From IMG/VR virus record IMGVR_UViG_3300032223_003481, positions 1 through 27,694 of that record: a stretch of DNA of 27,694 nt; one strand, written 5' to 3'. The stretch comes from a virus. Shown in pieces: positions 3,598 through 26,490 of this stretch (position 1 is its first letter; every line of letters begins with the position of its first letter). The notes under the pieces were generated by a model, which was not told the origin of the DNA, made no database searches, and was given only the letters and a program-made list of their open reading frames with translations. A program made the translations under genes and the position numbers.

Positions 3598-4098
3598 ATC
3601 TTGGAGCGACAAAGACATTCTCATTGTAAGAGTATCGCCGCTTTGAGTTGTAACTGTATCTGACAATAAATTACTTGCAATTAAAAGTCCAGAATTATCA
3701 CTTGTAGTTGCCAAGAATAAAGTGGATACTGGTCCCCAACCACCTCCAGTAGCTGTAAATGTCACAATTTGACTTATCGCTCTATATGCTCCATTAGTGT
3801 AATCTAAAGTAAATCCATTGACAGTGCTTACTGGTTGTCTAAAATATCCATTTGAAGTTGGTTCTAAATAAATACTTGAAATTGTATTGGTTGTACTTAT
3901 CAATACTCTTGCATCTAATCCGAAATATAAATTTGCTGGTGGAAGTGATCCTGAATTATTGAATACACATTGAAGTAAAAAATACTCACCTTGTTCATGC
4001 AAAGTATTAAGAATATTTTGATCTTGCCATATTACTTTTCCATCTCGAATATGTTGAATTTCTAAAATCTTTACGAGACCTTGCCAATTTTTATTCAT
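3589..4098 (-). CDS. Beta-rich phage protein, possibly virion-associated
   Basis: A 169-residue protein made almost entirely of short beta-prone stretches rich in Ser, Thr, Asn and Gly, with few charges in the C-terminal two thirds. The sequence around residues 28-60 (N-L-x(3)-G-E-Y-F-L-L, then P-P-A-N-L-Y-F-G-L) resembles a pattern I know from small virion or tail-associated beta-sandwich proteins of phages. The likeness is general and the function is not established. The start codon overlaps the end of the 2H phosphoesterase gene: the sequence ggcaaaaATGaataa contains both this ATG and the upstream TAA. The two genes are therefore probably translationally coupled. Confidence 0.6.
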   Translation of the reverse strand: MNKNWQGLVKILEIQHIRDGKVIWQDQNILNTLHEQGEYFLLQCVFNNSGSLPPANLYFGLDARVLISTTNTISSIYLEPTSNGYFRQPVSTVNGFTLDYTNGAYRAISQIVTFTATGGGWGPVSTLFLATTSDNSGLLIASNLLSDTVTTQSGDTLTMRMSLSLQDSA

Positions 4099-4654
4099 TT
4101 TTGCCTTTCAGAGTAATATGTCTCTTTTCTCCAGTTTTTGAAGAAAAAATTAATTTGTTGACTTCAAAATTTTCTCCATCAAATGTTTTGTCTCCAACAA
4201 ATTTTTTGCCCAAATTTTTTTTCAAATATGCTATTGTAACATGTGGTATATATTCTGCATGTGTTTGAGTAGTTTTTATAAAATTTTTTATTTTTTTATG
4301 CAAACTATTTGATTTATCGCTTTTTACTTTTATCACAAGTACATCGAAATTATCATTTTTCGTAAATAAAATCATTTCGCCTAATTCGCATTTTATTTTA
4401 TCCTCATCGCGTATTAATTCTTGCGTTTCTTTATGATTACCAGAATGAATGCCATAAATTATTGTCATATGAATATCATCTTCGCGACCAAAAGAAGGAT
4501 CTTCAGGATCAGAAAATAAGTCTTCATTTGGTATATTATCAAAACCCCAAGAAATTATATTGTCTGTTAATTCTTCCGGCAATTCTATTAATAGGGATGA
4601 ATAATCATATTTTTTTACTTCATTAACCAAAAACTGTTTGAAACTCATCTCCAT
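4091..4654 (-). CDS. 2H phosphoesterase (LigT/Acb1-like fold) with capsid-targeting-like N-terminus
   Basis: A 187-residue protein with the two signature H-x-T motifs of the 2H phosphoesterase superfamily: IHMTII (His62, Thr64) and PHVTIAY (His138, Thr140). The spacing of about 76 residues is typical of the two-lobed fold. Family members hydrolyse or transfer 2',3'- and 3',5'-cyclic phosphates, RNA ends and cyclic nucleotide signals; T4 Acb1, which destroys CBASS messengers, belongs here. The N-terminus MEMSFKQFLVNE resembles the T4 capsid-targeting sequence. I chose ATG 4654 because GAGAAAG lies a few bases upstream; ATG 4648 and 4669 are alternatives. The 5' end overlaps the preceding coiled-coil gene and the 3' end overlaps the next gene, giving a tight operon downstream of the terminase. 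The exact substrate cannot be read from the sequence. Confidence 0.8.
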   Translation of the reverse strand: MEMSFKQFLVNEVKKYDYSSLLIELPEELTDNIISWGFDNIPNEDLFSDPEDPSFGREDDIHMTIIYGIHSGNHKETQELIRDEDKIKCELGEMILFTKNDNFDVLVIKVKSDKSNSLHKKIKNFIKTTQTHAEYIPHVTIAYLKKNLGKKFVGDKTFDGENFEVNKLIFSSKTGEKRHITLKGKNE

Positions 4655-4958
4655 TATCTTTCTCATCATCTGCTTGATTTTTTCTTTGCTTTAGTTGTTC
4701 TAGACGAGATTTTTCCTTAGCAATCTCCTCATCAATCGCACGAATAGTCCTGAATGGGTCAAGAACTGCAGAAGTCGTATTTTCGCTTTTCCGTTTTTCT
4801 AAACTTGTTTGACGTTTTATTCTTTTATTTTCTACGTGCTCAATTACACCAAGTGCCGCACGGATGTGATATTTAACTTCTGATAAAGCAAAATCATTTG
4901 GAACATCTGATAAAGCTTTAGCTAACAAATATTTAATTTCTTCAGTATTATCTTTCAT
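4623..4958 (-). CDS. Small charged coiled-coil protein, 111 aa
   Basis: The ATG at 4958 overlaps the end of the upstream 316-residue gene, and the 3' end overlaps the start of the 2H phosphoesterase gene, so it is the middle member of a tightly packed minus-strand operon. The N-terminal half looks helical. Residues about 70-98 form a strongly charged, probable coiled coil rich in Glu, Lys, Arg and Gln (A-I-D-E-E-I-A-K-E-K-S-R-L-E-Q-L). No enzyme motif, signal or membrane segment is visible. Position between terminase and phosphoesterase suggests a head or packaging accessory protein, but this is inference only. Confidence 0.6.
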   Translation of the reverse strand: MKDNTEEIKYLLAKALSDVPNDFALSEVKYHIRAALGVIEHVENKRIKRQTSLEKRKSENTTSAVLDPFRTIRAIDEEIAKEKSRLEQLKQRKNQADDEKDNGDEFQTVFG

Positions 4959-5898
4959 CGTTCATCCTTTCAATCCATTTTATTGGTAATTCATCACCAA
5001 CAACTTTATATTGAAGATTCCCATTAATTTTTTTTACATATTTTTGTTCAGTTTTTATTTTCCATAAATCCATGTTTGACACAAGAGGAGCATCAGTTAA
5101 AAATAAATTATTTGGCAAACTATTTTTATATCCCAATGAAATTTCTGTTTTCAAATTTTCATAAAAAGCTCTTTCGGAAATAGGACGAACCATATATAAG
5201 TTTATAATCTGATTATATTTAGGATTCTCTTTTAATTGCCTTATGAGTTCTTTAATATTGTTTTTCAAGTCTTCTGGAGCATTTGATTCTTGGTAGTTAA
5301 TTATTTGAAAGTCGGATAAAGTTTTTTTATATAGGAATTCACAATAAAATTGATTGCCTGCTTTTATCTTGCATTCATTTAAATGAAAATCTTCAGATTG
5401 TTGTGCTTCTAAATTTATTTCATAATTTTTCCAAGTAGAAATTTTTGAAATTATAAATTCTATTTTTTGAGACAATTTTTCTAAAAATTGATTTGCCTCA
5501 TACAAATAAGAATCAAATATATGATCAACGGCTTCAGTTTGCAAATCTGGAGAAATTAATGTAACTTGATAATCAAATAGGCAACTTTCAATTTGTTTAT
5601 GTAAATAATTCTTATTTACATAAAATTCTTTAAATCGATGTTGTGCATTTTGTATTCTTTCAATATTTGATGAAGATACAGCAATACATAATTGATCTTT
5701 ATGAGGATAATTTAATTCCGATAAATCTTGATAAAGCTTTTCCACATTTATAAATTTCTTTTTTATTTCATTTATTTTTTCATAACATGGTTTTAGCAAA
5801 AGACTTGATAGATCTGCATATAATTTATTTTTATATGGATTTATGTTTACAGAAATTGCATTTAATTCTTTATTTTCAATATATTTTTTAAGGGACAT
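4948..5898 (-). CDS. Hypothetical protein, 316 aa, downstream of terminase
   Basis: Starts at ATG 5898, just after the terminase stop, with GGAG in the terminase 3' end as ribosome binding site. The protein is largely helical, lysine- and asparagine-rich, with repeated L/I-x(2)-L spacing that suggests coiled-coil segments (about 60-110 and 130-155). It has no signal peptide, membrane helix or catalytic motif I recognise. The N-terminus MSLKKYIENKE is loosely similar to the capsid-targeting-like starts seen elsewhere here, though weaker. The C-terminal 60 residues are more compact and may form a separate domain (S-N-M-D-L-W-K-I-K). Function unknown. Confidence 0.65.
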   Translation of the reverse strand: MSLKKYIENKELNAISVNINPYKNKLYADLSSLLLKPCYEKINEIKKKFINVEKLYQDLSELNYPHKDQLCIAVSSSNIERIQNAQHRFKEFYVNKNYLHKQIESCLFDYQVTLISPDLQTEAVDHIFDSYLYEANQFLEKLSQKIEFIISKISTWKNYEINLEAQQSEDFHLNECKIKAGNQFYCEFLYKKTLSDFQIINYQESNAPEDLKNNIKELIRQLKENPKYNQIINLYMVRPISERAFYENLKTEISLGYKNSLPNNLFLTDAPLVSNMDLWKIKTEQKYVKKINGNLQYKVVGDELPIKWIERMNDER

Positions 5899-5901
5899 AT
5901 T

Positions 5902-7758: not shown

Positions 7759-7804
7759 AACTTTCTTTTTCTCGACCTTACTTATATAGGACTTAAAAAA
7801 CTAA

Positions 7805-8236
7805 ATGACACGACAAGAATTGCTAAATCAATTAAATAATGATCTCATGAATGAATATATGCATATGCATTTTTATCTTTATCATGCAAGTGCCATCACT
7901 GGATTACATCGGGAAGAACTTAGAGAGTTTCTTCTCAAAGAAGCTGGCAGTGAAATGAATCATGTCACCGAATTTTCTGATCTCATTTTCGGATTAGGAG
8001 AAACTCCAACAACATTAAGTAATTCTTTTGCTAAGCTTGAAAATCCTAAAGAAATTTTTCAATATGCTTTAGAAATGGAAAAACAAGTCGTTGAAAATTA
8101 TGTGACAAGAATCTCGGAAGCAGACGTATTGGGAAAAGTTGATGGAAAGTGGTTGGAAATTTTTCTTGAAAAACAAATTGAACATAGTCGGGAAGATGTC
8201 GATCATTTTCAAAGAATTTTGACGGGATTGTTATAA
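7805..8236 (+). CDS. Ferritin-like di-iron protein
   Basis: A 143-residue four-helix-bundle protein of the ferritin/bacterioferritin type. Ligand-like residues fall at family spacing: Glu17 (helix A, NEYMHMHFY), Glu50 and His53 (helix B, EAGSEMNH), a Glu at about 90-92 in helix C (ALEMEKQV), and Gln124/Glu126/His127 in helix D (LEKQIEHSRED). Such proteins oxidise and store iron or protect DNA from iron-driven damage. It is a little shorter than typical bacterial ferritins (about 160) and has no signal peptide. It stands alone in the divergent gap after the terminase gene, and the ribosome binding site is weak (GGAC about 12 bases upstream). A Dps-type or encapsulin-cargo-type role is an alternative. 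The ferritin-like assignment is fairly secure; the role in infection is unknown. Confidence 0.8.
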   Translation: MTRQELLNQLNNDLMNEYMHMHFYLYHASAITGLHREELREFLLKEAGSEMNHVTEFSDLIFGLGETPTTLSNSFAKLENPKEIFQYALEMEKQVVENYVTRISEADVLGKVDGKWLEIFLEKQIEHSREDVDHFQRILTGLL

Positions 8237-8241
8237 TTTTG

Positions 8242-8272
8242 TTGAACAATAATTTTTTTTTAGTAATATAAT
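8242..8272 (+). promoter_or_regulatory. Possible sigma70-type promoter
   Basis: A consensus TATAAT at 8267-8272 is preceded by TTGAAC at 8242-8247 with a 19-base spacer, longer than ideal. It lies 37 bases before the GTG start of the next gene. The surrounding sequence is AT-rich, which lowers confidence. Confidence 0.35.
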
Positions 8273-8308
8273 CGAAATGTTTTTTAAATTAGAAAGCGAG
8301 AGTGAACT

Positions 8309-8611
8309 GTGAAGTATGAAATTGTAAAGAATCTTCCTGTTGCAAAATTTTTCTACAAGGGAAGTCATAGTCATGCAGTGCGGCGAACTGTACTAGTGAT
8401 TGAATCAACAGGCGAATATATCAAGGGATATGAATTACGCGAAGGTACTATTACGAGAATTGCCGAAAAAGCTCCTATTAAAACATATTGTCGATGCAAA
8501 ATTGCTAGGGGAGCCAATTTACGAGCAGAGAATCCAATTAGAAAGAAGGCTCCTGAAAAGAGCACGTTGATTAGAAAGCCGCTTATGGATATAATTAAAA
8601 CAGGATTTTAA
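8309..8611 (+). CDS. Small basic hypothetical protein, 100 aa
   Basis: Begins with GTG (an ATG seven bases further on is out of frame) after a purine-rich GCGAGAG stretch. It is followed 20 bases after its stop by a strong hairpin terminator, which supports it being a real single-gene unit. The protein has a beta-rich first half (V-L-V-I-E-S-T-G-E-Y-I-K-G-Y-E) and a strongly basic second half with many Arg and Lys (I-R-K-K-A-P-E-K), which could bind nucleic acid. No known motif was recognised. A possible sigma70 promoter upstream would make it an early gene, the usual class for small host-takeover proteins. Function unknown. Confidence 0.65.
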   Translation: MKYEIVKNLPVAKFFYKGSHSHAVRRTVLVIESTGEYIKGYELREGTITRIAEKAPIKTYCRCKIARGANLRAENPIRKKAPEKSTLIRKPLMDIIKTGF

Positions 8612-8630
8612 TTAGTCGGCACTCAATAAA

Positions 8631-8834: not shown

Positions 8835-8850
8835 TTATTGCCTTTCAATA

Positions 8851-8880: not shown

Positions 8881-8895
8881 TTAATTCTACAAAAA

Positions 8896-12614: not shown

Positions 12615-12908
12615 GTGACAGAACTGCTTATTAACAATATGTTTAAAACCATTGAAACAATTCATAGTAATTCTATTTACTCACAATGGAATTATCAAGA
12701 TGATTATGATGATGACGATGACGATGACGACGACGATGATTACTTTGATGATGATGAAGATGAAGAAGATGAAGAAGATGATGACGACGACGATTGGGGC
12801 GATGATTGGGACGACGACGACGACGATGACTATGATGACGATGATGATGACGACGATGACGATGACGATTGGGACGACGACTGGTTCGATGACGATGATG
12901 AAGATTAA
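12615..12908 (+). CDS. Extreme aspartate-rich acidic protein
   Basis: A 97-residue protein starting with GTG, eight bases after AAGGAG. Residues 1-28 are ordinary (M-T-E-L-L-I-N-N-M-F). In the remaining 69 residues I count 53 Asp and 6 Glu, punctuated at intervals by Trp, Tyr, Phe and one Gly. The DNA uses both GAT and GAC rather than one simple triplet, and no stop occurs, so selection for the Asp frame is likely. The other two long frames over this stretch (Met/Thr-rich and Arg/His-rich) are byproducts. It is followed three bases later by the next gene, so both are one operon. A polyanion of this kind could mimic DNA, bind cations or basic proteins, or act in packaging. None of these is shown. 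Confidence 0.75.
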   Translation: MTELLINNMFKTIETIHSNSIYSQWNYQDDYDDDDDDDDDDDYFDDDEDEEDEEDDDDDDWGDDWDDDDDDDYDDDDDDDDDDDDWDDDWFDDDDED

Positions 12909-13530: not shown

Positions 13531-13767
13531 TTATTTGCAGTTACACTTCTTTTTTGTGTAATTGATTTTATTTTTTCTGGTAATTGGCAAATCACTGCCA
13601 TTTAACGAATATGAAGAATAGCCTTGACTTGGATTTCCCGGAGGCTTTTCTCTTCGTTTTTCAACACCATCTCCGCCATCTCCCTCGTCCTCTACATTTG
13701 ATGGACTATTGGCAGAGCCTCCGTAATTTTCTTTTATTCGTCTTTTAAACCACTCTGTGAATGACAT
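13531..13767 (-). CDS. Small low-complexity protein with capsid-targeting-like N-terminus
   Basis: The ATG at 13767 has AAGGCGG just upstream; a longer in-frame reading from 13806 has no such site. The 78-residue product starts MSFTEWFKRRIKE and then becomes Gly-, Ser-, Asp- and Pro-rich without predicted structure, ending in a basic, Cys-containing tail (T-K-K-K-C-N-C-K). The start resembles the T4 capsid-targeting sequence, with aromatics at positions 3, 6 and 7. An I-K-E triplet at residues 11-13 matches the (I/L)-x-E consensus cut by T4 gp21. It may thus be a cleaved, head-packaged internal protein. This is inference. The sulfotransferase-like gene lies directly upstream on the same strand. 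Confidence 0.55.
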   Translation of the reverse strand: MSFTEWFKRRIKENYGGSANSPSNVEDEGDGGDGVEKRREKPPGNPSQGYSSYSLNGSDLPITRKNKINYTKKKCNCK

Positions 13768-14479: not shown

Positions 14480-16981
14480 ATGCCACTTTGGAGTGATTTT
14501 TTTCGATTATTCACATACAGTAGTGAAAAAGATCCATTATCAGCAAGAAAAGATCCAAAACAATTTCCTACAGCAGGCATTGCACAGCCAGATGCACTAG
14601 GAACTGATTTCGGTCAAGGTACGGGTCCGGGAGGTCAGTCAAGCTATCGTGAAACAAACGATATGATTGACACAACCACTCTCACAAATCGCCAAATGCG
14701 ATATAAAGAATATGAGAGACTTCGTAATGTGCCAGAAATTGAAATGGCAATGACCGTTTATTCAGATGAAGCTTGTGTTGCAGGTGACACAAAAATTGCA
14801 ACACCATTTGGTCTCTATACAATAAAAGAACTCGCAGAAAAAAGAGGCGATGAAAGATTTTTAGTTTATTGCTATGACTTTAAAAAGAATGATTATACTC
14901 TCGGCTGGGCATTTTCTCCAAGATTAGTTAAAGTCGCTAAAACAATCACAATTATTCTCGATAATGGAAGTAAATTCACAGCTACTGAAGATCATAGAGT
15001 ATTGCTAAAAAATGGCACTTGGATAGAAACTGGACAATTAAAATTTGGCGATGAATTAATGCCATTTTATAGATTGCCAGCAAATACAAAATGGAGACAT
15101 AATCAATATCCGAGAATATTCAGCACTTTACGTGGCTGGATGCATGAACGTCAATTTGTGGATGAATGGAAAAGCAGTAAACCAAATCTGCATTACGAAA
15201 ATGTCAGCAAAGCCATACGGATGATAGGATGTCAATTAAAAATTAAACAAATTGGCGAAAGATTCCAAAAAGATTGGGCAACTGTTGAAAATTGGCTGGA
15301 AAAAGAAGGATTCACACATAGAGAAATTCGGCAACTTTATAAATTTCAAAAAGATCATCGTCGAATTGTTGGTGTGGAACCCGGTCCAGAACAAGAAGTA
15401 TATGATATAAGCGTTGAAGATCATCAATGTTTTGCAACTGATTCTGTTATCCTTCATAATTGCCAAAAAGATGAAGAAGGAAATATTTTTAAAATCAAAA
15501 CTAATAATGATGAAGTTAAAAAAGAATGTGAATTTTTATTATTACACCGCAAAATGCTTAACCTGAATAGAAATGGATGGACATGGTTTAAAAATCTATG
15601 CATTTCAGGCGACTGGTTTGTAGAAATAGTTGTTAATCCCGATAATCCCAAAGAAGGAATTTATCGAGCAGTATCTTTGCCTCCAGAAACAATGTATAGA
15701 ATTGAAACTGTTAAAGGAAAATTAATTGAATTCCAACAGTCAAAAGAAGGACCAGACTACCAAGCACTAGTTCGTGGACCAATTACAGGACAAAATGAAA
15801 CTGAATTAACACAAACAACAGCAATTCGTTTCGCCCCAAGTCAAATTGTTCATTTTAGAATTGGAGATGATCGAAAAACATTCTTCCCATATGGGCAAAG
15901 TTTAATTGAGCCTGCACGTGGTCCTGCTCATAGCTTGAGACTTATGGAAGACGCTATGGTTGTTTATAGATTGGTTAGAGCACCTGAACGTCGTGTTTTT
16001 TATGTAGATGTTGGTCAATTGCCGCCATTCAAGGCAGAAGCATTTATTGACAGAATTAAAGATCAGTTTAGAAAAAGAAAAACAACAAGTAGTTCAGGAA
16101 CTGGCGCAAATCAAGTTGAAGAAAAATGGATGCCGCCAGCACAAGATGAAGATTATTGGCTTCCAATTCGTCCTAATAGCAATACAAGAATTGAAACTCT
16201 GCCCGGTGCAGAAAATCTTGGAGAAATCGATGACGCAGTTTATTTCAGAAATAAACTATTAACTGCACTTAACTTCCCAAAAAATTATTTCAATAACGAA
16301 GATGCTAATGCAACAAGAATTACACTTTCATCACAAGACGTAAAGTTCGCTCGAATGATTGAACGGTTGCAATCTGCATTTGAAGATGGAGTTCTTGAAT
16401 TAGCCGAGAGACATCTACAACTAAGAGGATTCCCTGAAGATTCCTATCAAGATCTAAAAATAAAAATGACTCCTCCATCTGATTGGAGAGAATTGTCTAG
16501 AGCAGAAGTTGTCAATGCAAGATATGGAAATGCTGGCTCTCTTAAAGGAAGTCAGCTTATGTCTGATTATGATATCATGACTAAAATATTAAAATATTCT
16601 GATGATGAAACAGAAGAAATGCTTGCAAGACTTAAAGTTCAAAAACTTGAAGACCTTAAATTGCAGGTATTGGGTCAAAATCCACAACTCCTTGGCGTTG
16701 GAATTCCCGGAACAGAAGACAAATCAAAAGAATTGGGAGCAGAAGCTGGCGGTCCTTCTACTATGCCTTCCCCAGAAGAAGGCTCTCCAACTTCCCCTGA
16801 ATCTCCTGAATCAGAAGCTCCGACTCCAGAAACAGCAAATGCTCCAAAAACTCAAGCTCCAGAAGCTGCAAGTTTACCAGACGCAAATCCAGATGATATT
16901 AAGAAATATGATTTGGAACTGCAAGATTATGAAAATGAACAAGATATTGAAAATGTTGATTTTAGCATTGAGGAACAATGA
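14480..16981 (+). CDS. gp20: Portal protein (T4 gp20-like), interrupted by an intein
   Basis: An 833-residue precursor. Residues 1-98 and 328-833 together form a gp20-type portal of 604 residues (T4: 524), the dodecameric ring through which DNA enters the head and to which the neck binds. Portal hallmarks after the intein include NLNRNGWTWFKNLCISGDWF, the LPPETMYRIE strand and the ARFxxQDVKFARMIERLQ-type region near 620-640. An in-frame intein of 229 residues occupies 99-327, inserted after Ala98, just where Y-S-D-E-A continues to C-Q-K-D-E-E-G-N after splicing. The last 95 residues form a Pro-, Glu-, Ala- and Ser-rich tail not present in T4 gp20. AAGGGCGG precedes the ATG. The next gene starts in the overlapping ATGA at the 3' end. 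Confidence 0.95.
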   Translation: MPLWSDFFRLFTYSSEKDPLSARKDPKQFPTAGIAQPDALGTDFGQGTGPGGQSSYRETNDMIDTTTLTNRQMRYKEYERLRNVPEIEMAMTVYSDEACVAGDTKIATPFGLYTIKELAEKRGDERFLVYCYDFKKNDYTLGWAFSPRLVKVAKTITIILDNGSKFTATEDHRVLLKNGTWIETGQLKFGDELMPFYRLPANTKWRHNQYPRIFSTLRGWMHERQFVDEWKSSKPNLHYENVSKAIRMIGCQLKIKQIGERFQKDWATVENWLEKEGFTHREIRQLYKFQKDHRRIVGVEPGPEQEVYDISVEDHQCFATDSVILHNCQKDEEGNIFKIKTNNDEVKKECEFLLLHRKMLNLNRNGWTWFKNLCISGDWFVEIVVNPDNPKEGIYRAVSLPPETMYRIETVKGKLIEFQQSKEGPDYQALVRGPITGQNETELTQTTAIRFAPSQIVHFRIGDDRKTFFPYGQSLIEPARGPAHSLRLMEDAMVVYRLVRAPERRVFYVDVGQLPPFKAEAFIDRIKDQFRKRKTTSSSGTGANQVEEKWMPPAQDEDYWLPIRPNSNTRIETLPGAENLGEIDDAVYFRNKLLTALNFPKNYFNNEDANATRITLSSQDVKFARMIERLQSAFEDGVLELAERHLQLRGFPEDSYQDLKIKMTPPSDWRELSRAEVVNARYGNAGSLKGSQLMSDYDIMTKILKYSDDETEEMLARLKVQKLEDLKLQVLGQNPQLLGVGIPGTEDKSKELGAEAGGPSTMPSPEEGSPTSPESPESEAPTPETANAPKTQAPEAASLPDANPDDIKKYDLELQDYENEQDIENVDFSIEEQ
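14774..15460 (+). other. Intein in portal gene, with helix-turn-helix-like insert and no nuclease
   Basis: Encodes 229 residues with all splicing blocks in place. Block A starts at Cys1 (C-V-A-G-D-T). Block B is T71-E-D-H74 in FTATEDHRVLL. Block F is V-Y-D-I-S-V-E-D-H-Q-C-F (209-220). Block G is V-I-L-H-N ending at Asn229, with Cys as the +1 residue of the extein. It should therefore be splicing-competent. Between blocks B and F is an insert of about 100 residues with no LAGLIDADG, HNH or GIY-YIG motif. Intein residues about 157-180 (Q-I-G-E-R-F-Q-K-D-W-A-T-V-E-N-W-L) look like a helix-turn-helix of the kind used for DNA recognition by homing endonucleases, perhaps the remnant of a lost nuclease. 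Confidence 0.9.
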
Positions 16982-18208: not shown

Positions 18209-18577
18209 TTAATTTTGTGAATAGCCATCTGCAACATTTGGCAATACAACATCATTTCCCTTTGCTATGTCGCCAGCGCTCGATCCTGAAGCTGCAATAT
18301 CTACAGATTTATCTCCTAATCCCGTATTGTTAAACTTGTGTCGATGGTTGTAAATTTTTGTATCTAGCGGAGAAAAAGCATTTAAACCATATTTTTGCAA
18401 CACAGGTTTAAGTTCAGGCATTATTTCTTTCATATTATTAAGGAAAGAAGTCGCATGCTCGCTTTTCTTTTTTAAAATAATTTGAAAAGCATCAATCGCA
18501 GCATTATATTCAGAATCTTGATCGTCGCCAATCTGATTTTGATGTTTCTCACTGATATATTCAAAAAAACTTTTCAT
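18209..18577 (-). CDS. Small putative internal protein with capsid-targeting-like N-terminus, 122 aa
   Basis: Starts at ATG 18577, three bases after the stop of the upstream gene, without a clear ribosome binding site, so it is probably coupled. The N-terminus MKSFFEYISE lines up position by position with the T4 internal-protein targeting sequence MKTYQEFIAE: aromatics at 4 and 7, Glu at 10. It contains I-S-E, the (I/L)-x-E consensus for gp21 cleavage. The rest is helical to about residue 70 and then Gly/Ser/Asp-rich. No enzyme motif. It sits between the portal region and the head genes. Gene reality is quite sure; internal-protein status is inference. Confidence 0.65.
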   Translation of the reverse strand: MKSFFEYISEKHQNQIGDDQDSEYNAAIDAFQIILKKKSEHATSFLNNMKEIMPELKPVLQKYGLNAFSPLDTKIYNHRHKFNNTGLGDKSVDIAASGSSAGDIAKGNDVVLPNVADGYSQN

Positions 18578-18580
18578 AAA

Positions 18581-18916
18581 TTAAAATTCAGTTGATGGAG
18601 GTTCTTGTTCAAATTCTGTTTTTGCTAAACCCTGTGCTACTTTACGGGCTGCTTGTCTGACTCGTGATTTTAATGCAGGATCATTAAATGTTTCAGGATC
18701 AATTCCATGAATTTTTGGATCGCTTGAATTCGCTTTTAAAAACATAAACACTTTAGCAGGCTTTAATGATAATAATTCCATAAAGCCTTGTAATACTGAT
18801 TCTAATGCATCTGCAGACTGAGTGCTAATTGACGGAGCACGACCAAATGTGCCTTTTCCTATTTGAGATAAACTGATTTCATCTAACCTATCTTTAAATT
18901 CTCTAAAGCTTTCCAT
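18581..18916 (-). CDS. Small putative internal protein with capsid-targeting-like N-terminus, 111 aa
   Basis: ATG at 18916 with AAAGGCAGAG upstream. The N-terminus MESFREFKDRLDE shares the Phe4/Phe7 pattern of the T4 capsid-targeting sequence, and L-D-E at 11-13 fits the gp21 cleavage consensus. The body is helical and moderately basic, with a C-terminal segment S-R-V-R-Q-A-A-R-K-V-A-Q-G that could bind DNA. It is the first gene of a two-gene unit with the 122-residue protein, followed by the glycosyltransferase gene on the same strand. It diverges from the large head-module gene at 19102. Not recognised otherwise. Confidence 0.65.
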   Translation of the reverse strand: MESFREFKDRLDEISLSQIGKGTFGRAPSISTQSADALESVLQGFMELLSLKPAKVFMFLKANSSDPKIHGIDPETFNDPALKSRVRQAARKVAQGLAKTEFEQEPPSTEF

Positions 18917-19101: not shown

Positions 19102-20904
19102 ATGAAAAGAAAACTCATCAGCTTCGATACTTTTAAGAAAATCGAAGAAAATTCACTTACTAATGCCCAAGATGAATTAATCGGGGCTGAAGATGTTCTC
19201 GCCAAAACGTTGGGAACAGACGATCTCAGATTATCAACATTTGGCGAATCAGATGTTACTTATGAAGCTCCAGATGGCACATATATTCATGCCACCTATA
19301 CACTCAATAAGGATCAATTGGTTCTTGAAAATATTGAGCAACTTGTTATTGAAGAAGAAAGCGAAAAGAAAAATGCTCGCCAACTTCTTAACAGTATGGT
19401 GGAATCGCTCTTAGATAATAATGATGCTAAAGCAAGCCATCAATTTGAATCATATCTTTCTATGCCATCAGTTCGACGTGGATTAATAGTTAATGAATCT
19501 GCAAAGCATGATGACGATAAAGATGTTCCTTTCTTTATGAAGAAAAAAGGAAAAAGCAAAAAGCCAATGACTGCCAAACAACGCAGATTCTTTGCGATGA
19601 TTGCTGCTAAGAAAGGTAAAAAACACAAGTCAAATCCATTTGCTAAAAAGATTAAGCCAGCAACCATGAAAGAATGGGCTGTTATGTGCGAAAATGTAAT
19701 CGATTTTATTGATTATAAGCAATTTGGTCCTATCTTTGGCGAATCGCAAGTTAAGACAGATCCAAAAGGAAATATTACTGCAGTCGCAATTCCTACACTA
19801 CAAAAACGAAATGAATCTAAAATCCTTAATTTCAATTGGAAAACTTTGGATCATGATCTCAAGGTCGTTCGTGGAAATGCTAAAAAGACAATTCGTGAAG
19901 ATCAAAACTTCGTTAGAGCAATGTCAGATCTAAAGAGATATAATAATATTTCTGATAATCATGCACTCGAAGAAACTCTTGAAGCTATCGTTTCTCGCTG
20001 GCCAGATGTTCTTTATGTGACAGAATCAGAACTCGCTGATCAAATTGCTTTCGCTCTTGAAAGTGCTAATATTACTAATTTTGATGATAATACCTGCCAA
20101 TTTATGGCTGAAGCAATCCTTCGCACTGCGCACAATGCTTATACTGATCGAGTTCGTAAAATCGGTCAACTTGCTGGTGCAGAAACTGATATTACCGCTG
20201 AATGTAAAAATTGCGAAGATTCCTATCAAGAATTCCGTAATATTTCAACTGAATTCTTCACAAAACTTGATGAATCAGAAGAAACAGAATTGCGAGTTTT
20301 CTCAGATCTACTCAAGGCACTTAATGAAGTTCGTCGTGCTGCTCTTGAATTGGGCGATCAAGCTACTCAAGACACCGTTGAAAGTTATATGTATGAATGC
20401 CAAGCTATTATAAATCGTCAAAATGTTGTAGATTTAAATCTGGCTGAATCAATCGCTTCATTCCTACATGATATCGTTGAAAGCAATGTCATGGGTTCCT
20501 CAGATAAATGGGATGTTGCTAACTCTACACATATTTCAATAAATGGTGAACATCCAAGAACACTAATGAATGCTAAAGTTACTGATGCAGTTCCTTCTAA
20601 ATATAATGGCGATTGGGGTGATTCTGCTCCAGTTTCAGATGGAAAAAGCTATCATAATAATCTAGCTGATGAAATGAGAAATAGTTGGATGAGCATGGGC
20701 GGAGATCAAGTCTGGCCAGCCGTCAGCAATCCTTATATTCCTAAAGCTGGTGATTTTAAAATGAAAGAACCATCAGCATCTACAGAAGATGATAATTTGA
20801 GCCGCTATCAAACAAATGATACATGGCCTAATCTACAAAATCCATATGCTCCAAAAGCTGGTTTTCCAAAAGCTAAGTCCGATGATTTAGTTGTTGATAT
20901 GTAA
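19102..20904 (+). CDS. Large head-module protein, probable prohead core or internal protein
   Basis: About 600 residues from ATG 19102; a TTG at 19096 is closer to the AGGGAG site and remains possible. It lies between portal and prohead protease, where T4 has the small core genes 67 and 68, so a prohead core or internal role is likely. The N-terminus K-L-I-S-F-D-T-F-K-K-I-E-E has an I-E-E gp21-type site. A very basic segment near 150-180 contains P-M-T-A-K-Q-R-R-F-F-A-M-I-A-A-K-K-G, a motif common in small phage structural proteins. The middle is acidic and helical. The C-terminus has two copies of W-P-x(3)-N-P-Y-x-P-K-A-G (about 20 residues each), ending just before the stop. A terminator follows. 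It is far larger than gp67 or gp68, so no T4 name is given. Confidence 0.7.
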   Translation: MKRKLISFDTFKKIEENSLTNAQDELIGAEDVLAKTLGTDDLRLSTFGESDVTYEAPDGTYIHATYTLNKDQLVLENIEQLVIEEESEKKNARQLLNSMVESLLDNNDAKASHQFESYLSMPSVRRGLIVNESAKHDDDKDVPFFMKKKGKSKKPMTAKQRRFFAMIAAKKGKKHKSNPFAKKIKPATMKEWAVMCENVIDFIDYKQFGPIFGESQVKTDPKGNITAVAIPTLQKRNESKILNFNWKTLDHDLKVVRGNAKKTIREDQNFVRAMSDLKRYNNISDNHALEETLEAIVSRWPDVLYVTESELADQIAFALESANITNFDDNTCQFMAEAILRTAHNAYTDRVRKIGQLAGAETDITAECKNCEDSYQEFRNISTEFFTKLDESEETELRVFSDLLKALNEVRRAALELGDQATQDTVESYMYECQAIINRQNVVDLNLAESIASFLHDIVESNVMGSSDKWDVANSTHISINGEHPRTLMNAKVTDAVPSKYNGDWGDSAPVSDGKSYHNNLADEMRNSWMSMGGDQVWPAVSNPYIPKAGDFKMKEPSASTEDDNLSRYQTNDTWPNLQNPYAPKAGFPKAKSDDLVVDM

Positions 20905-20950: not shown

Positions 20951-20974
20951 TTATAAAAAATCAACACGATAATG

Positions 20975-20982: not shown

Positions 20983-21018
20983 ACTGTCGTGCTGAATATA
21001 TAAAAAAACAGGAGTATT

Positions 21019-21687
21019 ATGGACAATATGACATTACTCGTTGATTGCTGCAACAACGGTGGATTCTCCATGAATCTTAATGAGTCAACCGATAAAGGTC
21101 TCACTAAATTCAAAGGAAAATTTCAAGAAGCCGAAGCAGTAAACAAGAATAAAAGAATCTACCCTTTTGGTGTTCTTGATGAAAATCTCAAGAAACTATT
21201 GCCAATCGTTGAAGCTCGTGGATTGGTTGGTGAATTAGATCATCCAACTGATAGTATCATTCACTTTGAAAAATGTTCCCATGTTATTACTAAACTATGG
21301 TGGGAAGGTAACAATCTCATGGGTGAAGGAGAAATTTTAAATACACCTCATGGTCGTATTCTAAAGAGCCTCATATCCGATGGTGTTCGGGTAGGAATCA
21401 GTAGCCGTGGTGTTGGTAACGGTCGCAGTGATGAAAATGGAATTCTAGTTATTGGCGAAAGCTATAAACTCATTACATTTGATGCTGTTGCTGATCCATC
21501 TACATACAACGCCTTTCAGGAGAAAGTCGTTGCTAAAAAAGAAAATTATATTCCGACACAAAATTATGAAAAAAATGTTGCAAAAAATGAATTGAGCAGC
21601 ATACATAAGTACACCAACAAAGAAGCACTAATTGCTTGCTTGGGCGGAATAATCAAGAAACAAACTAGCAATATAAAGCGAGGTTAG
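21019..21687 (+). CDS. gp21: Prohead core protease (T4 gp21-like)
   Basis: A 222-residue serine protease of the T4 prohead type (U9/S78-like), which cleaves scaffold, capsid and internal proteins after (I/L)-x-E during maturation. The family core is present: N-K-N-K-R-I-Y-P (43-49); catalytic-type His75 in GELDHP; the serine region G-I-S-S-R-G-V-G (127-133; Ser128 or Ser129); and D-A-V-A-D-P-S (155-161). The length is close to T4 gp21 (212). ATG 21019 has AGGAG six bases upstream; an internal ATG at 21070 with GGTGGA is a second possible start. An L-N-E triplet at 20-22 could allow self-cleavage. First gene of the capsid operon. Good confidence in identity. Confidence 0.92.
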   Translation: MDNMTLLVDCCNNGGFSMNLNESTDKGLTKFKGKFQEAEAVNKNKRIYPFGVLDENLKKLLPIVEARGLVGELDHPTDSIIHFEKCSHVITKLWWEGNNLMGEGEILNTPHGRILKSLISDGVRVGISSRGVGNGRSDENGILVIGESYKLITFDAVADPSTYNAFQEKVVAKKENYIPTQNYEKNVAKNELSSIHKYTNKEALIACLGGIIKKQTSNIKRG

Positions 21688-21692
21688 GCTAA

Positions 21693-22589
21693 ATGGACAA
21701 AATTACTGAAGCATTATCAAAGCTCATACCAGAGTCTGAGATCCAAGAAGTATCAGCCGCTGTAAATGAAATGTTGGAGCAGGCTAAGGCAGATCTTGAA
21801 GCTGAATTTAATCAGAAACTTGAAGAAGCCTATGCTGAGCTTACAACTGAATTGACAGAAGCTGAAAATACAGCAGAACAAGGTTACGAAGAAGCTTATG
21901 CCATCATCGGCGATCTACGTAATCGTTTGGAAATTCAAGGCGAAGAATATAAAGCCGCACTTGAAGAAGGTTATGAAGAAGCATACCAAATGCTAAAAGC
22001 AGAACAATCTAAAAATCAGCAACTCGAAGTTGATATGTATGAAGAATATGATCGTAAACTTTCTGAAATGAAAGAATACATCGTTGATAAAGTTGATCAG
22101 TTCCTACAGTTCAAAGGATCGGAAATTTATGAACAAGCTAAACGCGATGTTATAAATGATCCTCGTATGGCTGAACATAAAGTTACACTGGATAAGATTG
22201 TTGATCTAACATCTTCTTATCTATCAGATGAAGGAGTCAATGCAGTTTCATCCAGTAAGTTGGAAGAAGCTACTAAGGCTGTTGAAGAAATGAAGGGTCA
22301 ACTACGTATTATGGAAGCACGTAATATTCGTCTCTCAACAGAAAATACTAAACTAAATGAGTCTGTGCGTCAAGCCCAAGAACTTATCTCGGAAAGCCGA
22401 AAAGCTGTCTCCAAAGCTAAGAAGTCAGGCGTCATCACAGAACAGAATGAAAGAACAGCGAAAGCACAGAATGTAACGGGGAGAGGTAAGACATCATTAG
22501 ATGAAGCTGTCATTGCGGAACATGCAGCATCATCAAATCCTGATCTAGATCAAATGTTGATTCTATCAGGTGTTAAATCAACAAAATAA
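21693..22589 (+). CDS. gp22: Prohead scaffold core protein (T4 gp22-like)
   Basis: A 298-residue, Glu- and Ala-rich, nearly all-helical protein with long coiled-coil character (residues about 10-125 and 190-240), typical of the main scaffolding core (T4 gp22, 269). It fills the prohead and is degraded by gp21 before DNA packaging. Several (I/L)-x-E triplets are visible, for example L-E-E and I-T-E. Position between protease and major capsid gene supports the call. It starts five bases after the gp21 stop, with GAGG-type ribosome binding sequence in the gp21 3' end. No enzyme motif expected or seen. Confidence 0.9.
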   Translation: MDKITEALSKLIPESEIQEVSAAVNEMLEQAKADLEAEFNQKLEEAYAELTTELTEAENTAEQGYEEAYAIIGDLRNRLEIQGEEYKAALEEGYEEAYQMLKAEQSKNQQLEVDMYEEYDRKLSEMKEYIVDKVDQFLQFKGSEIYEQAKRDVINDPRMAEHKVTLDKIVDLTSSYLSDEGVNAVSSSKLEEATKAVEEMKGQLRIMEARNIRLSTENTKLNESVRQAQELISESRKAVSKAKKSGVITEQNERTAKAQNVTGRGKTSLDEAVIAEHAASSNPDLDQMLILSGVKSTK

Positions 22590-22619
22590 TTAGTCCTTAG
22601 AAATTTTTTTAGGAAATAT

Positions 22620-24065
22620 ATGAACGCAAATTCTCGATTTTTAAACGAGGCTAAGGAGCTAGAAACACGTTGGGGCAAGACAGGTCTCCTCGAAGGTATT
22701 CAAGACCGTTATGTTCGTAGTGCCACAGCAGTTCTACTCGAAAACCAAAGACTTATGAACGAAGTCTCAACTGATACAGGTGATATCGCTCAGTTCAAGC
22801 GCATCAGCATTCCACTAGTTCGTCGTATTTATCCACAACTAATCGCTAATAAGATCGTCTCTGTTCAACCATTGCTCGGTCCAACAGGCTTGGTTTATTA
22901 TCTGCGATTTAGATACAGCAGCAATAAGGGTGCTACCCGTGGTGCTAGCAATATCGGTGGATTCCCCGGCGATGATGCTAATAGCTTGATGCAATTGGCA
23001 GACGGTACTGCTAACTTGGATATTTTCTACACCAGCCAGTTCGTTCAGAATGAAGTAAGCTCAACTGACGCTGGTATTGGTATGGTCACAACCTATGCTC
23101 CTCTTGAACACACTCCAATACTAGCTGGTACTGTTACTGGTACTCTCTATGTTGGTGCAACTGCTGTGCAAACATTCGTTGTTACCGCTGGTGGCTCAGT
23201 TAACTTTGTTGATATCGGTGCCCCAGCAGTTAAAGGTCAAACAGCAGGATCAATGCTAGATCTTACCACAGGCGAACTCAAAATCGCTTGGAATGGTGGC
23301 GCTCCCGGTCCTAACCATGCTGTTCTTTCCTATGAATACAACATGGAATGTAACCAAGATCTACCAGAAATTAACCTCGTGATCGAATCAGAAGAAATCG
23401 CTGCTAAGACACGTAAGTTGAAGGCTGTTTGGTCATACGAAGCTCAGCAAGACCTCCGCTCACAGCACAATCTTGATGCTGAAGCTGAACTAACTGCTGT
23501 TCTAGCTCAAGAAATTAACCTCGAAATTGACCGCGAAGTTCTCACCGATCTTCGTAATAACAGCGGTACTGTAACCGCTTGGGACTTCAATACTGCACTT
23601 GGTGAAACCATCAAGGAAAAGTATGAATCACTATATGTTAAAGTCGTCGAAGTTTCAAACGTAATCCATCGTAAGACATTACGTGGTGGTGCTAACTGGA
23701 TCGTTACAAGCCCTGAAGTTGCTTCTATATTTGAAACAGCTACTGCGGGTTTTGCACCAGCATCAAGCGAAACATTCACTAGCTCACTAGGCATTCAGTA
23801 TGTCGGTACAGTGAATAATCGTTGGAGACTATATAAAGATCCTCTATTCCCAACCAATCAACTATTGATGGGTTATAAGGGTGATAGCTATATGGACTCA
23901 GGTTACTTCTATTGCCCATATGTCCCTCTCACGCAAACACCAGTTGTTCTCGATCCAGAGAGCTTCTGTCCTCGTAAGGGAATATTGACGAGATACGGAA
24001 AAAAATTGTTAAGAGAAGGTGCAAAGTTCTATGCAAGAATGAGCATAGCAAACTTTGTGATATAG
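22620..24065 (+). CDS. gp23: Major capsid protein (T4 gp23-like)
   Basis: A 481-residue capsid protein of the HK97 fold, similar to T4 gp23 (521). The N-terminal region (L-L-E-N-Q-R-L-M-N-E) is the usual gp23 start of a cleaved delta domain. Residues about 60-90 (I-P-L-V-R-R-I-Y-P-Q-L-I-A-N-K-I-V-S-V-Q-P) and Y-L-R-F-R-Y are the classic gp23 signature. The central part (A-V-L-S-Y-E-Y-N-M-E, then K-A-V-W-S-Y-E-A-Q-Q-D-L) fits as well. A possible gp21 cleavage site lies near residues 46-48 (M-N-E), but I cannot place it surely. AGGAAATAT precedes the ATG. The codons are unusually rich in C-ending forms, as expected for the most highly expressed late gene. A strong terminator follows. Confidence 0.95.
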   Translation: MNANSRFLNEAKELETRWGKTGLLEGIQDRYVRSATAVLLENQRLMNEVSTDTGDIAQFKRISIPLVRRIYPQLIANKIVSVQPLLGPTGLVYYLRFRYSSNKGATRGASNIGGFPGDDANSLMQLADGTANLDIFYTSQFVQNEVSSTDAGIGMVTTYAPLEHTPILAGTVTGTLYVGATAVQTFVVTAGGSVNFVDIGAPAVKGQTAGSMLDLTTGELKIAWNGGAPGPNHAVLSYEYNMECNQDLPEINLVIESEEIAAKTRKLKAVWSYEAQQDLRSQHNLDAEAELTAVLAQEINLEIDREVLTDLRNNSGTVTAWDFNTALGETIKEKYESLYVKVVEVSNVIHRKTLRGGANWIVTSPEVASIFETATAGFAPASSETFTSSLGIQYVGTVNNRWRLYKDPLFPTNQLLMGYKGDSYMDSGYFYCPYVPLTQTPVVLDPESFCPRKGILTRYGKKLLREGAKFYARMSIANFVI

Positions 24066-24097
24066 GCATAAAACTTCACTTATGCGAATAGATTAAT

Positions 24098-24134
24098 AAA
24101 AAACCCACCGTTGAAATTCAACGGTGGGTTTTTT
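24098..24134. terminator. Strong bidirectional rho-independent terminator
   Basis: AAAAAACCCACCGTTGAA (24098-24115) and TTCAACGGTGGGTTTTTT (24117-24134) form a near-perfect 18-bp inverted repeat, folding with a short loop. It ends the capsid operon on the plus strand and the convergent endonuclease gene on the minus strand, whose stop codon overlaps its edge. Confidence 0.92.
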
Positions 24135-25288
24135 CATATTAATTTAATTATTTCTACAAACTCTAATGCTTTCAATTCATCGATTGAAAGTGGCACTTGA
24201 TTTTTCAAATATTTTTCATCCAAATAAGAAAAATCGCAGTTGTTTTCTTTAGAATAATTTTGTGCTATTTCAATTTTATATTGAACTTGTTCTTCTCTCA
24301 TTCTAAATGCTGGCTTAATTTCCAATAAATCTGGTCTTTTAGATTTTCTTACTACAAAAAAATCTGGAATATAATGGCGGATACCCTTTGCACTTTCATA
24401 AGGAATAGCAAATGGTTCATTTTCATACCAAATTACATCATCGTCATGATGTAATAAATAATGAGTTCTAAGCTCCAAACTTGAGCGAAAAAATGCTTTT
24501 TGTTTTTTGCATTTTTTGCTTTTAAAATAACCTGTTACATAAAATCTTGAATCTTCAGGATTAAATTTTCCAGAAACAATTTTTGCTGCCATCGTCGCAC
24601 TTTGCTTTTGATTCCATTCTTCTGGTCTCATAATTCCTTTTGCCCAAGGATTAGCATAAGATTCTGTCAACCATTCTTTACAATTTTGACGCAGATAATC
24701 TTTCATTTCTGGCAATTGATTATAATGCTGGACTCCATATCTCTCTAGTGTAGTTTGAGCCATTTTCACACGAACTTCGGGCACTTGAGCTACATTCTCA
24801 ATTCCATACCGTTCTTTAACTGTATTTTGCATTTTTTCCAGAATTTCTTTATTCTGGAGTGGGTGATCAACACCATATTTTTCTTGCATAACCTTCTTTT
24901 GTTTTTCTTGAACGGCTTCGGATTTCATATGATGTTCAACACCATATTTCTCTTGGCATGTCTTTTTAGATTTTTCTGATCGTTGTTTGACAAATTCCTT
25001 ATCTTTAAATTGCTCTTTTCTTTTTTCAATATTTTCTTGAGAGTTCATTGCAAGTTCATTTCCATATCTCTCCAAATTTGTTTTTTTAATTTTTTCTTTG
25101 ACTTCTTTGTTTTTCATGGGATTATTTAATTTTGTTAATCCCCAATTTGTGATATACTGTCCATTGTTTCTTGCAACATTTTGTTTTGCCGCACCATATC
25201 TTGTCTTTTTGGTTTTGCCGGTAATGTCACATTCGATAAAAACAAATTGATCATCTGGTGTGTCTTTTGGAATTTCAGAAAATTTCAT
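24134..25288 (-). CDS. Homing-endonuclease-like protein: Y-G repeats plus PD-(D/E)XK domain
   Basis: A 384-residue protein in two parts. Residues about 70-190 hold a repeat with core E-K/R-Y-G at 75, 115, 138, 161 and 184 (spacings 40, 23, 23, 23) and a conserved pattern of K-x(2)-T/M before it. Such repeats occur in phage homing-endonuclease-like proteins and may wrap DNA. Residues about 265-330 hold a PD-(D/E)XK nuclease core: Glu272 (F-R-S-S-L-E-L-R), Asp309 (Y-I-P-D-F-F) and Glu323/Lys325 (L-L-E-I-K-P). It is a likely free-standing endonuclease that cuts DNA of competing phages or mobilises itself. It sits beside gp23 on the opposite strand, behind a shared terminator. The start at ATG 25288 has GGAACG upstream. 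Role inferred from domains. Confidence 0.75.
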   Translation of the reverse strand: MKFSEIPKDTPDDQFVFIECDITGKTKKTRYGAAKQNVARNNGQYITNWGLTKLNNPMKNKEVKEKIKKTNLERYGNELAMNSQENIEKRKEQFKDKEFVKQRSEKSKKTCQEKYGVEHHMKSEAVQEKQKKVMQEKYGVDHPLQNKEILEKMQNTVKERYGIENVAQVPEVRVKMAQTTLERYGVQHYNQLPEMKDYLRQNCKEWLTESYANPWAKGIMRPEEWNQKQSATMAAKIVSGKFNPEDSRFYVTGYFKSKKCKKQKAFFRSSLELRTHYLLHHDDDVIWYENEPFAIPYESAKGIRHYIPDFFVVRKSKRPDLLEIKPAFRMREEQVQYKIEIAQNYSKENNCDFSYLDEKYLKNQVPLSIDELKALEFVEIIKLI

Positions 25289-25390
25289 AACGTTCCTTTC
25301 TAAATAAGAATGTCTATCACTATTATAGTGAATCTAGCATAAAAAAAATAGAATTATTGAAAATTTTTTACAAAATAAAGCAAAAAAAAA

Positions 25391-25399
25391 TGATATAAT
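25391..25399 (+). promoter_or_regulatory. Extended -10 promoter
   Basis: TGATATAAT matches the extended -10 element (TG-n-TATAAT) exactly. No good -35 is present, as is common for extended -10 promoters. It would start transcription near 25406, 31 bases before the ATG of the 75-residue gene. Confidence 0.55.
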
Positions 25400-25436
25400 A
25401 CTCAAAGATTCGTTTATCAGGTTTCACAATCCAAAA

Positions 25437-25664
25437 ATGTTGGATTTAGATACTTTGGAATTGAATAAAATTTGGATGATCGAGAGCGGTTTGGATTTTG
25501 AAGGCTCCATTAAAAAATATGGAGAAAAGATTATACAATACGCAACAGAAAAAGGTTATTCTATAGAGATGCGTATTCCTCATGGTAAGTTCCTTATTGT
25601 AAGACTTACTGAAGGCAACGGCAATCCAACCAAGAACTATTTTATGCGTGATTTTTTGCCATAG
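25437..25664 (+). CDS. Small hypothetical protein, 75 aa
   Basis: ATG at 25437 follows an extended -10 promoter; the ribosome binding site is weak (a CAGG about 15 bases upstream). The small protein is alpha/beta: a helix with acidic residues (L-D-T-L-E-L-N-K-I-W), a second helix (K-Y-G-E-K-I-I-Q-Y-A) and a strand pair (Y-S-I-E-M-R-I-P, K-F-L-I-V-R-L). No recognised motif. Its 3' end overlaps the convergent HExxH gene by 23 bases, which supports both being compact phage genes. Early expression from a host-type promoter is likely. Function unknown. Confidence 0.6.
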   Translation: MLDLDTLELNKIWMIESGLDFEGSIKKYGEKIIQYATEKGYSIEMRIPHGKFLIVRLTEGNGNPTKNYFMRDFLP

Positions 25665-26490
25665 CACGATTTTGCAACATCTGAACAAAGTAATTGATCA
25701 TATTCATCATTTGTGGAGAAGCTGCGTTCATTTGTTGTTGATATGGTGTAGTGTCCATGCCCCATGTCTTAGATTGCCCTGCTGGTTCGGTTAATCCTCC
25801 AATATATCTGTCTATTTTTGGTTGTACATGTTGAAGTTTCAACATTTTATTTGGATCGAATGGTTGATTAGGATAAAATCTACAATAGGTTACAGCAAAT
25901 TGTTTAGCATGCGCTCGCATTTCTCCAGCATCTGTATAGTAATCAATTTTTCCTTTATTGTATTCTGGAGAGCCTTGCTTATATTGTCCTGACATATAAG
26001 GATTGTAGTGTGTAGAATTTTTGCTGTCTATTTGACCAGAATCAATATGTGTACATTCATGGTGAAGTTGATATTCGATTTGATGAAGCATTAAAAGAAC
26101 AGATTGGTCTGTAAAATCATTTGCTGCCGCTAAAGCAGAAGTGTTCAGAGATACATTTATTCTCCCAGAACCATAACTTGCGGGCTTTTGCGATGGTGTA
26201 ATTCTAACTTGCAATCTTAAATCAACAAAATTTTGTGGCAATTGCACATTACCAATTGTATTTGGCACATTAACTTGTACTATATTTTGTGGCATAGCCG
26301 CACTTCCAACATTGCGAACTATAGCTGATCCATTGGAATTGGCAACAATTAATTGTGATATCTTTTGAGATTTTCCAGAGGCAAAAAAGTCTCTGACAGA
26401 TTTTTCTATTAGCTTATAAACAAATTGAGCAATTGCATCTTCGTATACATCACTTTGATGGGCTGACTCGCAAAAAACTTTAAAATTCAT
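25642..26490 (-). CDS. Candidate zinc metalloprotease (HECTH) with capsid-targeting-like N-terminus
   Basis: A 282-residue protein with HECTH at 144-148, the H-E-x-x-H zinc-protease motif, followed after about 42 residues by A-G-E-M-R-A-H-A with Glu190 as plausible third ligand. I know a similar arrangement (H-E-x-x-H, then Y-x(4)-E-x-x-A) in phage and bacterial metallopeptidase-like proteins of unknown substrate. The N-terminus MNFKVFCESAHQ has aromatics at 3 and 6 and an acidic residue at 8, resembling the capsid-targeting type. The middle (residues 60-125) is Gln-, Pro- and Asn-rich beta. The C-terminus is Gln- and Met-rich. There is no Shine-Dalgarno before ATG 26490, and a late-promoter-like octamer lies only eight bases upstream, so a leaderless start or a wrong start must be considered. 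Zinc protease call is moderate. Confidence 0.65.
   Translation of the reverse strand: MNFKVFCESAHQSDVYEDAIAQFVYKLIEKSVRDFFASGKSQKISQLIVANSNGSAIVRNVGSAAMPQNIVQVNVPNTIGNVQLPQNFVDLRLQVRITPSQKPASYGSGRINVSLNTSALAAANDFTDQSVLLMLHQIEYQLHHECTHIDSGQIDSKNSTHYNPYMSGQYKQGSPEYNKGKIDYYTDAGEMRAHAKQFAVTYCRFYPNQPFDPNKMLKLQHVQPKIDRYIGGLTEPAGQSKTWGMDTTPYQQQMNAASPQMMNMINYFVQMLQNRAMAKNHA

Follow-up and report, generated by a model that had tools for sequence, protein, structure and literature searches.

A short N-terminal motif that resembles the capsid-targeting sequence of the T4 internal head proteins was identified on several proteins of a viral DNA, the IMG/VR record IMGVR_UViG_3300032223_003481, the entire 27,694 bases of which were analyzed (hereafter, the window), and on many proteins of its large relatives. 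The window is a fragment of a T4-like phage genome, and the motif, or tag, very probably represents a T4-type capsid-targeting code that was expanded in a clade of huge phages and marks cargo for head packaging, cleavage and injection. A known kind of signal, first described on the T4 proteins IPI, IPII and IPIII (Mullaney and Black, 1996; review: PMC9026906), is found in greatly expanded form: about 4-13% of the genes of these large T4-like phages begin with the tag.

Tagged N-termini in the window

Five window proteins start with a tag of the form x-[ST]-F-[KR]-[QE]-[FWY]-[LV] followed by a glutamate. These, a degenerate form and a more loosely matching N-terminus are given below, with scores of the weight matrix introduced in the next section.

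18548-18577, minus strand: tag MKSFFEYISE of a 122-residue protein (18209-18577); aromatic residues at positions 4 and 7, Ile at 8, Glu at 10
18878-18916, minus strand: tag MESFREFKDRLDE of a 111-residue protein (18581-18916); L-D-E site; score 11.1
13729-13767, minus strand: tag MSFTEWFKRRIKE of a 78-residue protein (13531-13767); I-K-E, then N-Y-G-G; score 13.5
4619-4654, minus strand: tag MEMSFKQFLVNE of a predicted 2H phosphoesterase (4091-4654); score 15.4
26467-26490, minus strand: tag MNFKVFCE of a 282-residue protein (25642-26490) with a zincin-like motif, HHECTHID; score 9.3
5875-5898, minus strand: degenerate tag MSLKKYIE of a 316-residue protein (4948-5898) downstream of the terminase; score 8.0
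19102-19149, plus strand: N-terminus MKRKLISFDTFKKIEE of a 600-residue protein (19102-20904) encoded between portal and gp21, the place of gp67/gp68 in T4

The five clear N-termini had been proposed in a preliminary description as a capsid-targeting-like set, and all were found as written. The window tags include MKSFFEYISE and MEMSFKQFLVNEV. The predicted (I/L)-x-E ends are exact in three proteins (I-S-E at 18577, L-D-E at 18916 and I-K-E at 13767), while the fourth, at 4654, has V-N-E and the protein at 26490 only F-C-E, without L/I-x-E. The tag at 4654, for which an alternative start is possible at 4669, ends in L-V-N-E-V and resembles the site L-[MIV]-N-E of the major capsid protein gp23.

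The register of MKSFFEYISE is identical to that of T4 IPIII, and the tag is present in 15 of 15 phmmer-level relatives among the matches listed, with a linker that varies. In relatives of the 13767 protein, both the tag and the junction E-[NS]-[FY]-G-G are conserved. No clear orthologue was found for the 18916 protein. It has a weak link (E=4e-4) to a homologue of the protein at 18577, so that the 18577 and 18916 proteins may be remote members of a single family. The statement that the tagged proteins have nothing else in common is therefore slightly too strong. For the 26490 protein, the search of viral contigs gave one partial match only; a weak homologue (G001|164) is tagged (MGKFSFHHWLNLQES) and a homologue in G005 is untagged. 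No PHROG or Pfam family was matched by the small tagged window proteins.

Two further N-termini had been suggested as members. That at 5898 (MSLKKYIENK) belongs to the set, as it aligns with the starts MSFMKYLENK and MSSFAKYLESK of its homologues, another of which begins MSQFQQYVDF. That at 19102 is strongly conserved in the relatives listed, of 62 hits (MKRKLISFDxFKKIEE and close variants), but fits the tag more loosely.

The motif is enriched in a clade of huge phages

Searches of viral contigs with gp23 returned 80 close relatives, several of them long (125-533 kb), and one named relative, the 595-kb LR756511 (80% identity). Gene calling gave 35 genes for the window and 168-965 for each of six relatives (G001, G002, G004, G005, G006 and LR756511). 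The contigs are metagenomic and not necessarily complete genomes. The home-made gene caller used codons and ribosome-binding sites and was blind to the motif; gene starts are predictions. Sequences after internal methionines served as null model.

The pattern suggested in the preliminary description, M-x(1,3)-[FYW]-x2-[FYW]-x(1,6)-E, was run over the proteins of the window and of five of these relatives. It matched 5 of 34 window genes, with 0 expected from internal methionines and 0.5 from shuffles, and was in excess in the relatives as well (observed/expected: G001 19/2.2, G002 23/1.1, G005 35/3.4, G004 30/5.8, G006 26/3.6). A weight matrix of seven positions was trained on five genomes including the window, and N-termini scoring at least 8 were called tagged; G004 and LR756511 were held out and give a fairer test than the window. 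Six of 34 window N-termini reached this score (about 0 expected, p=1.5e-7), counted here as five because the primase match is a fold artefact. In the held-out genomes, 33 (G004) and 53 (LR756511) were found, with 2.4 and 3.1 expected, respectively. The excess over internal methionines held in all seven clade genomes, held-out ones included (p from 1.5e-7 to 7e-63), and the six larger relatives encode 22-52 tagged proteins each, compared to 0.6-3.1 by chance.

With the same matrix, T4 gave five matches, namely IPI, IPII, IPIII, gp61.1 and one probable chance match. No tagged N-terminus was found in phiKZ or SPN3US, and neither showed a match to the PF03420 protease.

When clade genes were sorted by T4 homology, 1 of 77 structural genes (a terminase) and 4 of 59 replication or early genes, all from one primase family, reached the threshold. 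Both the primase (315-1370 in the window, and in relatives) and the one terminase were discarded as false positives, their own folds mimicking the pattern. The preliminary description had named an equal frequency in early proteins as a finding that would speak against it; the pattern is not equally common there, because the four early matches reflect the primase fold and not a tag.

Residue rules agree with T4 capsid targeting

Mutagenesis of T4 IPIII assigned targeting to residues 4 and 7, both aromatic, and processing to residues 8 and 10; Asp at position 10 blocks processing but not targeting, and the prohead protease gp21 cleaves after L/I-x-E (PMC9026906). The residues conserved in the clade are those mapped in IPIII, which supports the T4-type reading put forward in the preliminary description. 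The matrix consensus is [TS]-F-[KR]-[QE]-[WFY]-[LV]-[EN], and aromatic pairs at spacing 3 are 2.68 times as frequent as in controls. Glu occurs within +5 to +13 in 92% of tagged proteins and 46% of controls, whereas Asp is at 42% in both. Likewise, [LI]xE is present in 43% of tagged proteins versus 14% of controls, and [LIVM]xD in 15% versus 17%. The residue after the Glu is S, A, G, N or T in 57% versus 22%. A strict I/L-x-E requirement was rejected as too narrow, since it covers only those 43%. Few proteins combine Glu at +5 with a downstream [LIVM]-x-E (9, compared to about 29 by chance), a near exclusion that would fit a need for a single site in each protein.

The window encodes gp21, gp23, an intein-split gp20 portal and, between the portal and protease genes, a large protein. 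The presence of a gp21 gene, part of the preliminary description, was borne out by a peptidase S77 profile match above the curated cut-off.

21019-21687, plus strand: gp21 prohead protease (PF03420, E=3.4e-25, 89.1 bits, cut-off 27; phrog_207)
22752-22763, plus strand: predicted gp23 (PF07068) maturation site LMNE, then V, at the same place as FLTE then A in T4

The gp23 site reads L-[MIV]-N-E in 81 of 81 alignment rows, and the next residue is mostly V, A, T or S. From this site we infer that the gp21 specificity of the window phage matches T4-type tag sites. As a separate observation, LR756511 (W01) carries two gp21-like protease genes (242621-242989 and 526118-526534), which may reflect a pair of head programmes or, alternatively, a second element.

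The clade tag thus shares with that of T4 the N-terminal location, the aromatics at 4 and 7, the hydrophobic-x-Glu without Asp enrichment, the mobility among unrelated proteins and the encoded gp21. It differs in number, as T4 has a handful of tagged proteins compared to 22-52 per clade genome, in Trp being the commonest second aromatic, in a more variable Glu position and in the leaderless-type promoter of many tagged genes in the relatives (see below).

The tag is a movable module on enzymes and other proteins

By body sequence, 208 tagged proteins fell into 158 families. When only residues 26 onward were compared, the reciprocal best partner was tagged for 60% of tagged proteins and 2.9% of untagged ones. 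Most tagged proteins have no family assignment; recognisable domains include NUDIX, HAD phosphatases, C39-like peptidase, radical-SAM, PolyA-polymerase heads and AdoMet decarboxylase. Pfam domains lie behind the tag; that of the NUDIX protein, for instance, begins at residue 14.

The product of 4091-4654 is predicted to be a 2H phosphoesterase of the Acb1/RNA-ligase group. H62-x-T64 and H138-x-T140 are invariant in four homologues, Foldseek retrieved 2H enzymes, and the protein matched PF23474 (Acb1; 34.7 bits, cut-off 27) as well as PF13563. Its PHROG label is 'RNA ligase', and LigT/CPDase ranked first and Acb1 26th in the structure search. In this family the tag is present in the window, G001, G004 and G005 and in a worn form in LR756511, whereas the proteins of G002 and L087 are untagged and begin at the domain itself. 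In the AlphaFold model of the window enzyme, residues 1-17 have a predicted local distance difference test (pLDDT) value below 50 and the fold starts at residue 19, consistent with the tag being a dispensable module outside the mature fold of this enzyme.

Acb1, the T4 nuclease (gp57B, PMC9117128) that counters CBASS by degrading 3'3'-cGAMP, is also a 2H phosphoesterase with the HxT/HxT tetrad, and the window protein exceeds the PF23474 cut-off; however, the structure search of the window enzyme favours RNA/cyclic phosphodiesterases, and T4 Acb1 has only MMEFKDF at its start, with no site. Gene 57B adjoins ipI in T4. A KVP40 relative of T4 Acb1 (182506-182961 of L267; 39% identity) starts MKLSKFLESQ. 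From such N-termini, Acb1 may be head-packaged more widely.

Tag-like N-termini in virions of other T4-like phages

The published proteome of the cyanophage S-CREM2 lists 52 virion proteins (PMC10665884). The pattern of the preliminary description was fixed before the S-CREM2 genome was looked at. Among the virion proteins it matched 5 of the 26 that are non-structural or unknown and 0 of the 26 structural ones, and it matched 3 of the 130 proteins that were not detected (p=0.0035). A pattern of the four T4 positions matched 4 of 26, 0 of 26 and 0 of 130, respectively (p=6e-4); its matches are a SAM hydrolase, a kinase, a cytidylyltransferase and one unknown protein. A cytidylyltransferase of the same kind was detected in S-SM1 virions (PMC3037559), and the P-SSM2 relative starts MKSFSQFLTE. 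The N-termini MKDFDSFLEE, MKRFDAFLTE and MKNFSSFLTE of the cyanophage virion enzymes fit the T4 pattern, but they belong to another lineage with few such enzymes per genome, and in the passages considered of the two reports (PMC10665884, PMC3037559) the authors drew no link to a targeting sequence. Since S-CREM2 represents a different T4-like lineage, it supports the rule and not the window proteins as such.

Further tag-like sequences were noted in other phages. Some 20 residues from its start, the Cas9-like virion protein of S-CREM2 (7704-10313 of L292) contains the sequence FASFMAE, which may be a tag if the start is mis-annotated. Stenotrophomonas phage RAS14 has MTQSFKQFLIEA and MSFKTFLIEG. 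Just upstream of gp21, in the prohead-core position, lie tag-like starts in phiM12 (29851-30258, MKSFKQLVE) and RAS14 (155372-155596, MSKSFREHLAE).

Two other systems are comparable. The packaging signal of P1 DarB (PMC9024508) is N-terminal and sufficient to carry a reporter into the head, but it spans about 10-30 residues, lacks a consensus with other Dar proteins and may be unrelated to the tag in sequence. The propeptides of SPN3US and phiKZ ejection proteins (PMC5694885) belong to head proteins that are cut after Glu by a gp21-like protease and then ejected; however, they mostly exceed 100 residues, and the clade motif scores 0 in both genomes.

Promoter geometry of tagged genes

In the relatives (L089-L165 and L178-L207), TANATA, usually CTANATA, ends 4 or 5 nt before the ATG of 87 of 208 tagged genes. 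It does so for 2 of the 77 structural genes, 1 of the 59 early genes and 69 of the 2651 remaining genes. The spacing is narrow: no tagged gene has a gap of 3 nt and four have a gap of 6. In 77 of the 78 cases with a gap of 4, a pyrimidine directly precedes the ATG. Shine-Dalgarno-like sequences precede 7 of 103 tagged genes with TANATA at a gap of 3-8, versus 60% of the other tagged genes. In a scan that did not depend on gene calls, 42% (N4) and 54% (N5) of TANATA-ATG frames carried the tag, versus 1.3% of all frames. The canonical T4 late promoter TATAAATA was not enriched upstream of tagged genes, the clade form being CTANATA. The element is instead most frequent 20-29 nt upstream in T4 and S-CREM2, neither of which has it at a gap of 4-5; such cases are few in P-SSM2 (5) and RAS14 (6). 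The window has no TANATA at a gap of 4-5. Of its tagged genes, those at 13767 and 18916 have purine-rich upstream sequences, and those at 4654 and 18577 lie close behind or overlap upstream genes.

From this geometry, TANATA is a probable late promoter that starts transcription at the A of the ATG, which would yield leaderless late mRNAs in the relatives. In G002 (L105:10132-17924), a 47-nt repeat occurs in nine copies, each covering promoter, ATG and tag and followed by a different gene, which suggests that promoter and tag move as one unit of DNA. That a short DNA cassette of leaderless late promoter and capsid-targeting codons can be placed before new genes, whose products would then be made late, packaged in the head and injected, providing each phage with 20-50 swappable proteins as infection begins, is a proposal to which we give even chances.

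Proposed mechanism and alternative explanations

By analogy with T4, the two aromatics three residues apart would form part of a short amphipathic helix that docks the nascent protein on the prohead core. At the hydrophobic-x-Glu behind them, gp21 of the phage would cleave and so release the mature protein into the head interior, and the cargo would be ejected together with the DNA. The tag itself is movable and heads unrelated proteins, enzymes included. Docking, cleavage, packaging and injection of the window proteins are predictions of this model, the last of them carried over from T4.

Several observations weigh against this model. Of the tagged proteins, 40% have a reciprocal best partner that is discordant for the tag, with genes taken from the home-made caller. 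About a quarter of tagged proteins are without a clear hydrophobic- or aromatic-x-Glu site, and cleavage after Glu at +5 would require an aromatic residue at P3, which is unproven for gp21. The virion mass spectrometry in support of the model comes from a distant lineage, with few matches. The T4-position pattern was composed after the S-CREM2 N-termini were known, and the huge-phage matrix reached only p=0.03-0.06 on that proteome at thresholds of 5-8, as the two residues that separate the aromatics are different in cyanophage tags.

A first alternative is that the tag does target the prohead core, but that many bearers are assembly or scaffold helpers degraded by gp21 instead of injected cargo. 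T4 core proteins are indeed cleaved within the prohead, the 19102 protein occupies the gp67/68 position, and the tagged phiM12 protein lies between a gp67-like gene and gp21. The tagged enzymes (2H, NUDIX, HAD, PolyA polymerase head, C39 peptidase, AdoMet decarboxylase) are unlike scaffold, however, and this explanation is considered possible but doubtful.

It is less probable, and on balance unlikely, that the amphipathic start helix serves another shared destination or partner unrelated to heads, such as a membrane, a late chaperone or a replication compartment. A helix that is short, aromatic and amphipathic might have numerous binding partners, and half of the tagged proteins have no [LIVM]-x-E after the motif. 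However, Glu is enriched and Asp is not, as gp21 requires, the T4 internal head proteins share the motif, phiKZ and SPN3US, which have no PF03420 match, lack it, and pattern-bearing enzymes were detected in S-CREM2 virions.

A third alternative, that nucleotide constraints on translation starts, e.g., of leaderless mRNAs, gave rise to the motif as a side effect, is very improbable: the promoter-start context is common to many tagged genes and the 47-nt repeat includes the tag, but synonymous codons are free (Phe: TTC 111, TTT 85), W, F and Y swap at +3, half of the tagged genes, those of the window included, lack the promoter element, and the element occurs without the motif at 98 untagged genes of unknown function.

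The T4-type capsid-targeting code thus remains the preferred explanation. For T4-like phages, the open-access literature yielded no earlier report of tag expansion and none of leaderless late promoters, a scope that does not establish priority.

Other features of the window

14480-16981, plus strand: gp20 portal (PF07230), split by an intein (PF14890, residues 114-327)
21693-22589, plus strand: probable gp22 scaffold, from position, synteny and Glu/Ala-rich composition; no Pfam match

No homing-endonuclease match was found in the portal intein. The structural region also encodes a ferritin-like protein (7805-8236) and an RCC1-repeat protein (26902-27651). A TnsA-like endonuclease N-terminal domain is fused to DUF7487 repeats at 24134-25288, and the C-terminal two thirds of a 97-residue open reading frame at 12615-12908 consist nearly entirely of Asp and Glu, with some Trp and Tyr.

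Implications for huge T4-like phages

Injected proteins work before any phage gene is expressed. In T4, IPI blocks GmrSD and IPIII is required to infect ECOR17 (PMC9391042). Because injected proteins act this early, the list of tagged proteins is an obvious starting point in a search for proteins of counter-defence and host takeover. If the proposed code is correct, it would also account for the enzymes in cyanophage virions, and the motif would offer candidate packaging tags for other T4-like phages. Relatives of up to 595 kb would carry a large, swappable cargo that is open to direct test, and dozens of unknown genes per huge phage would become, from sequence alone, a predicted class of proteins injected with the DNA.

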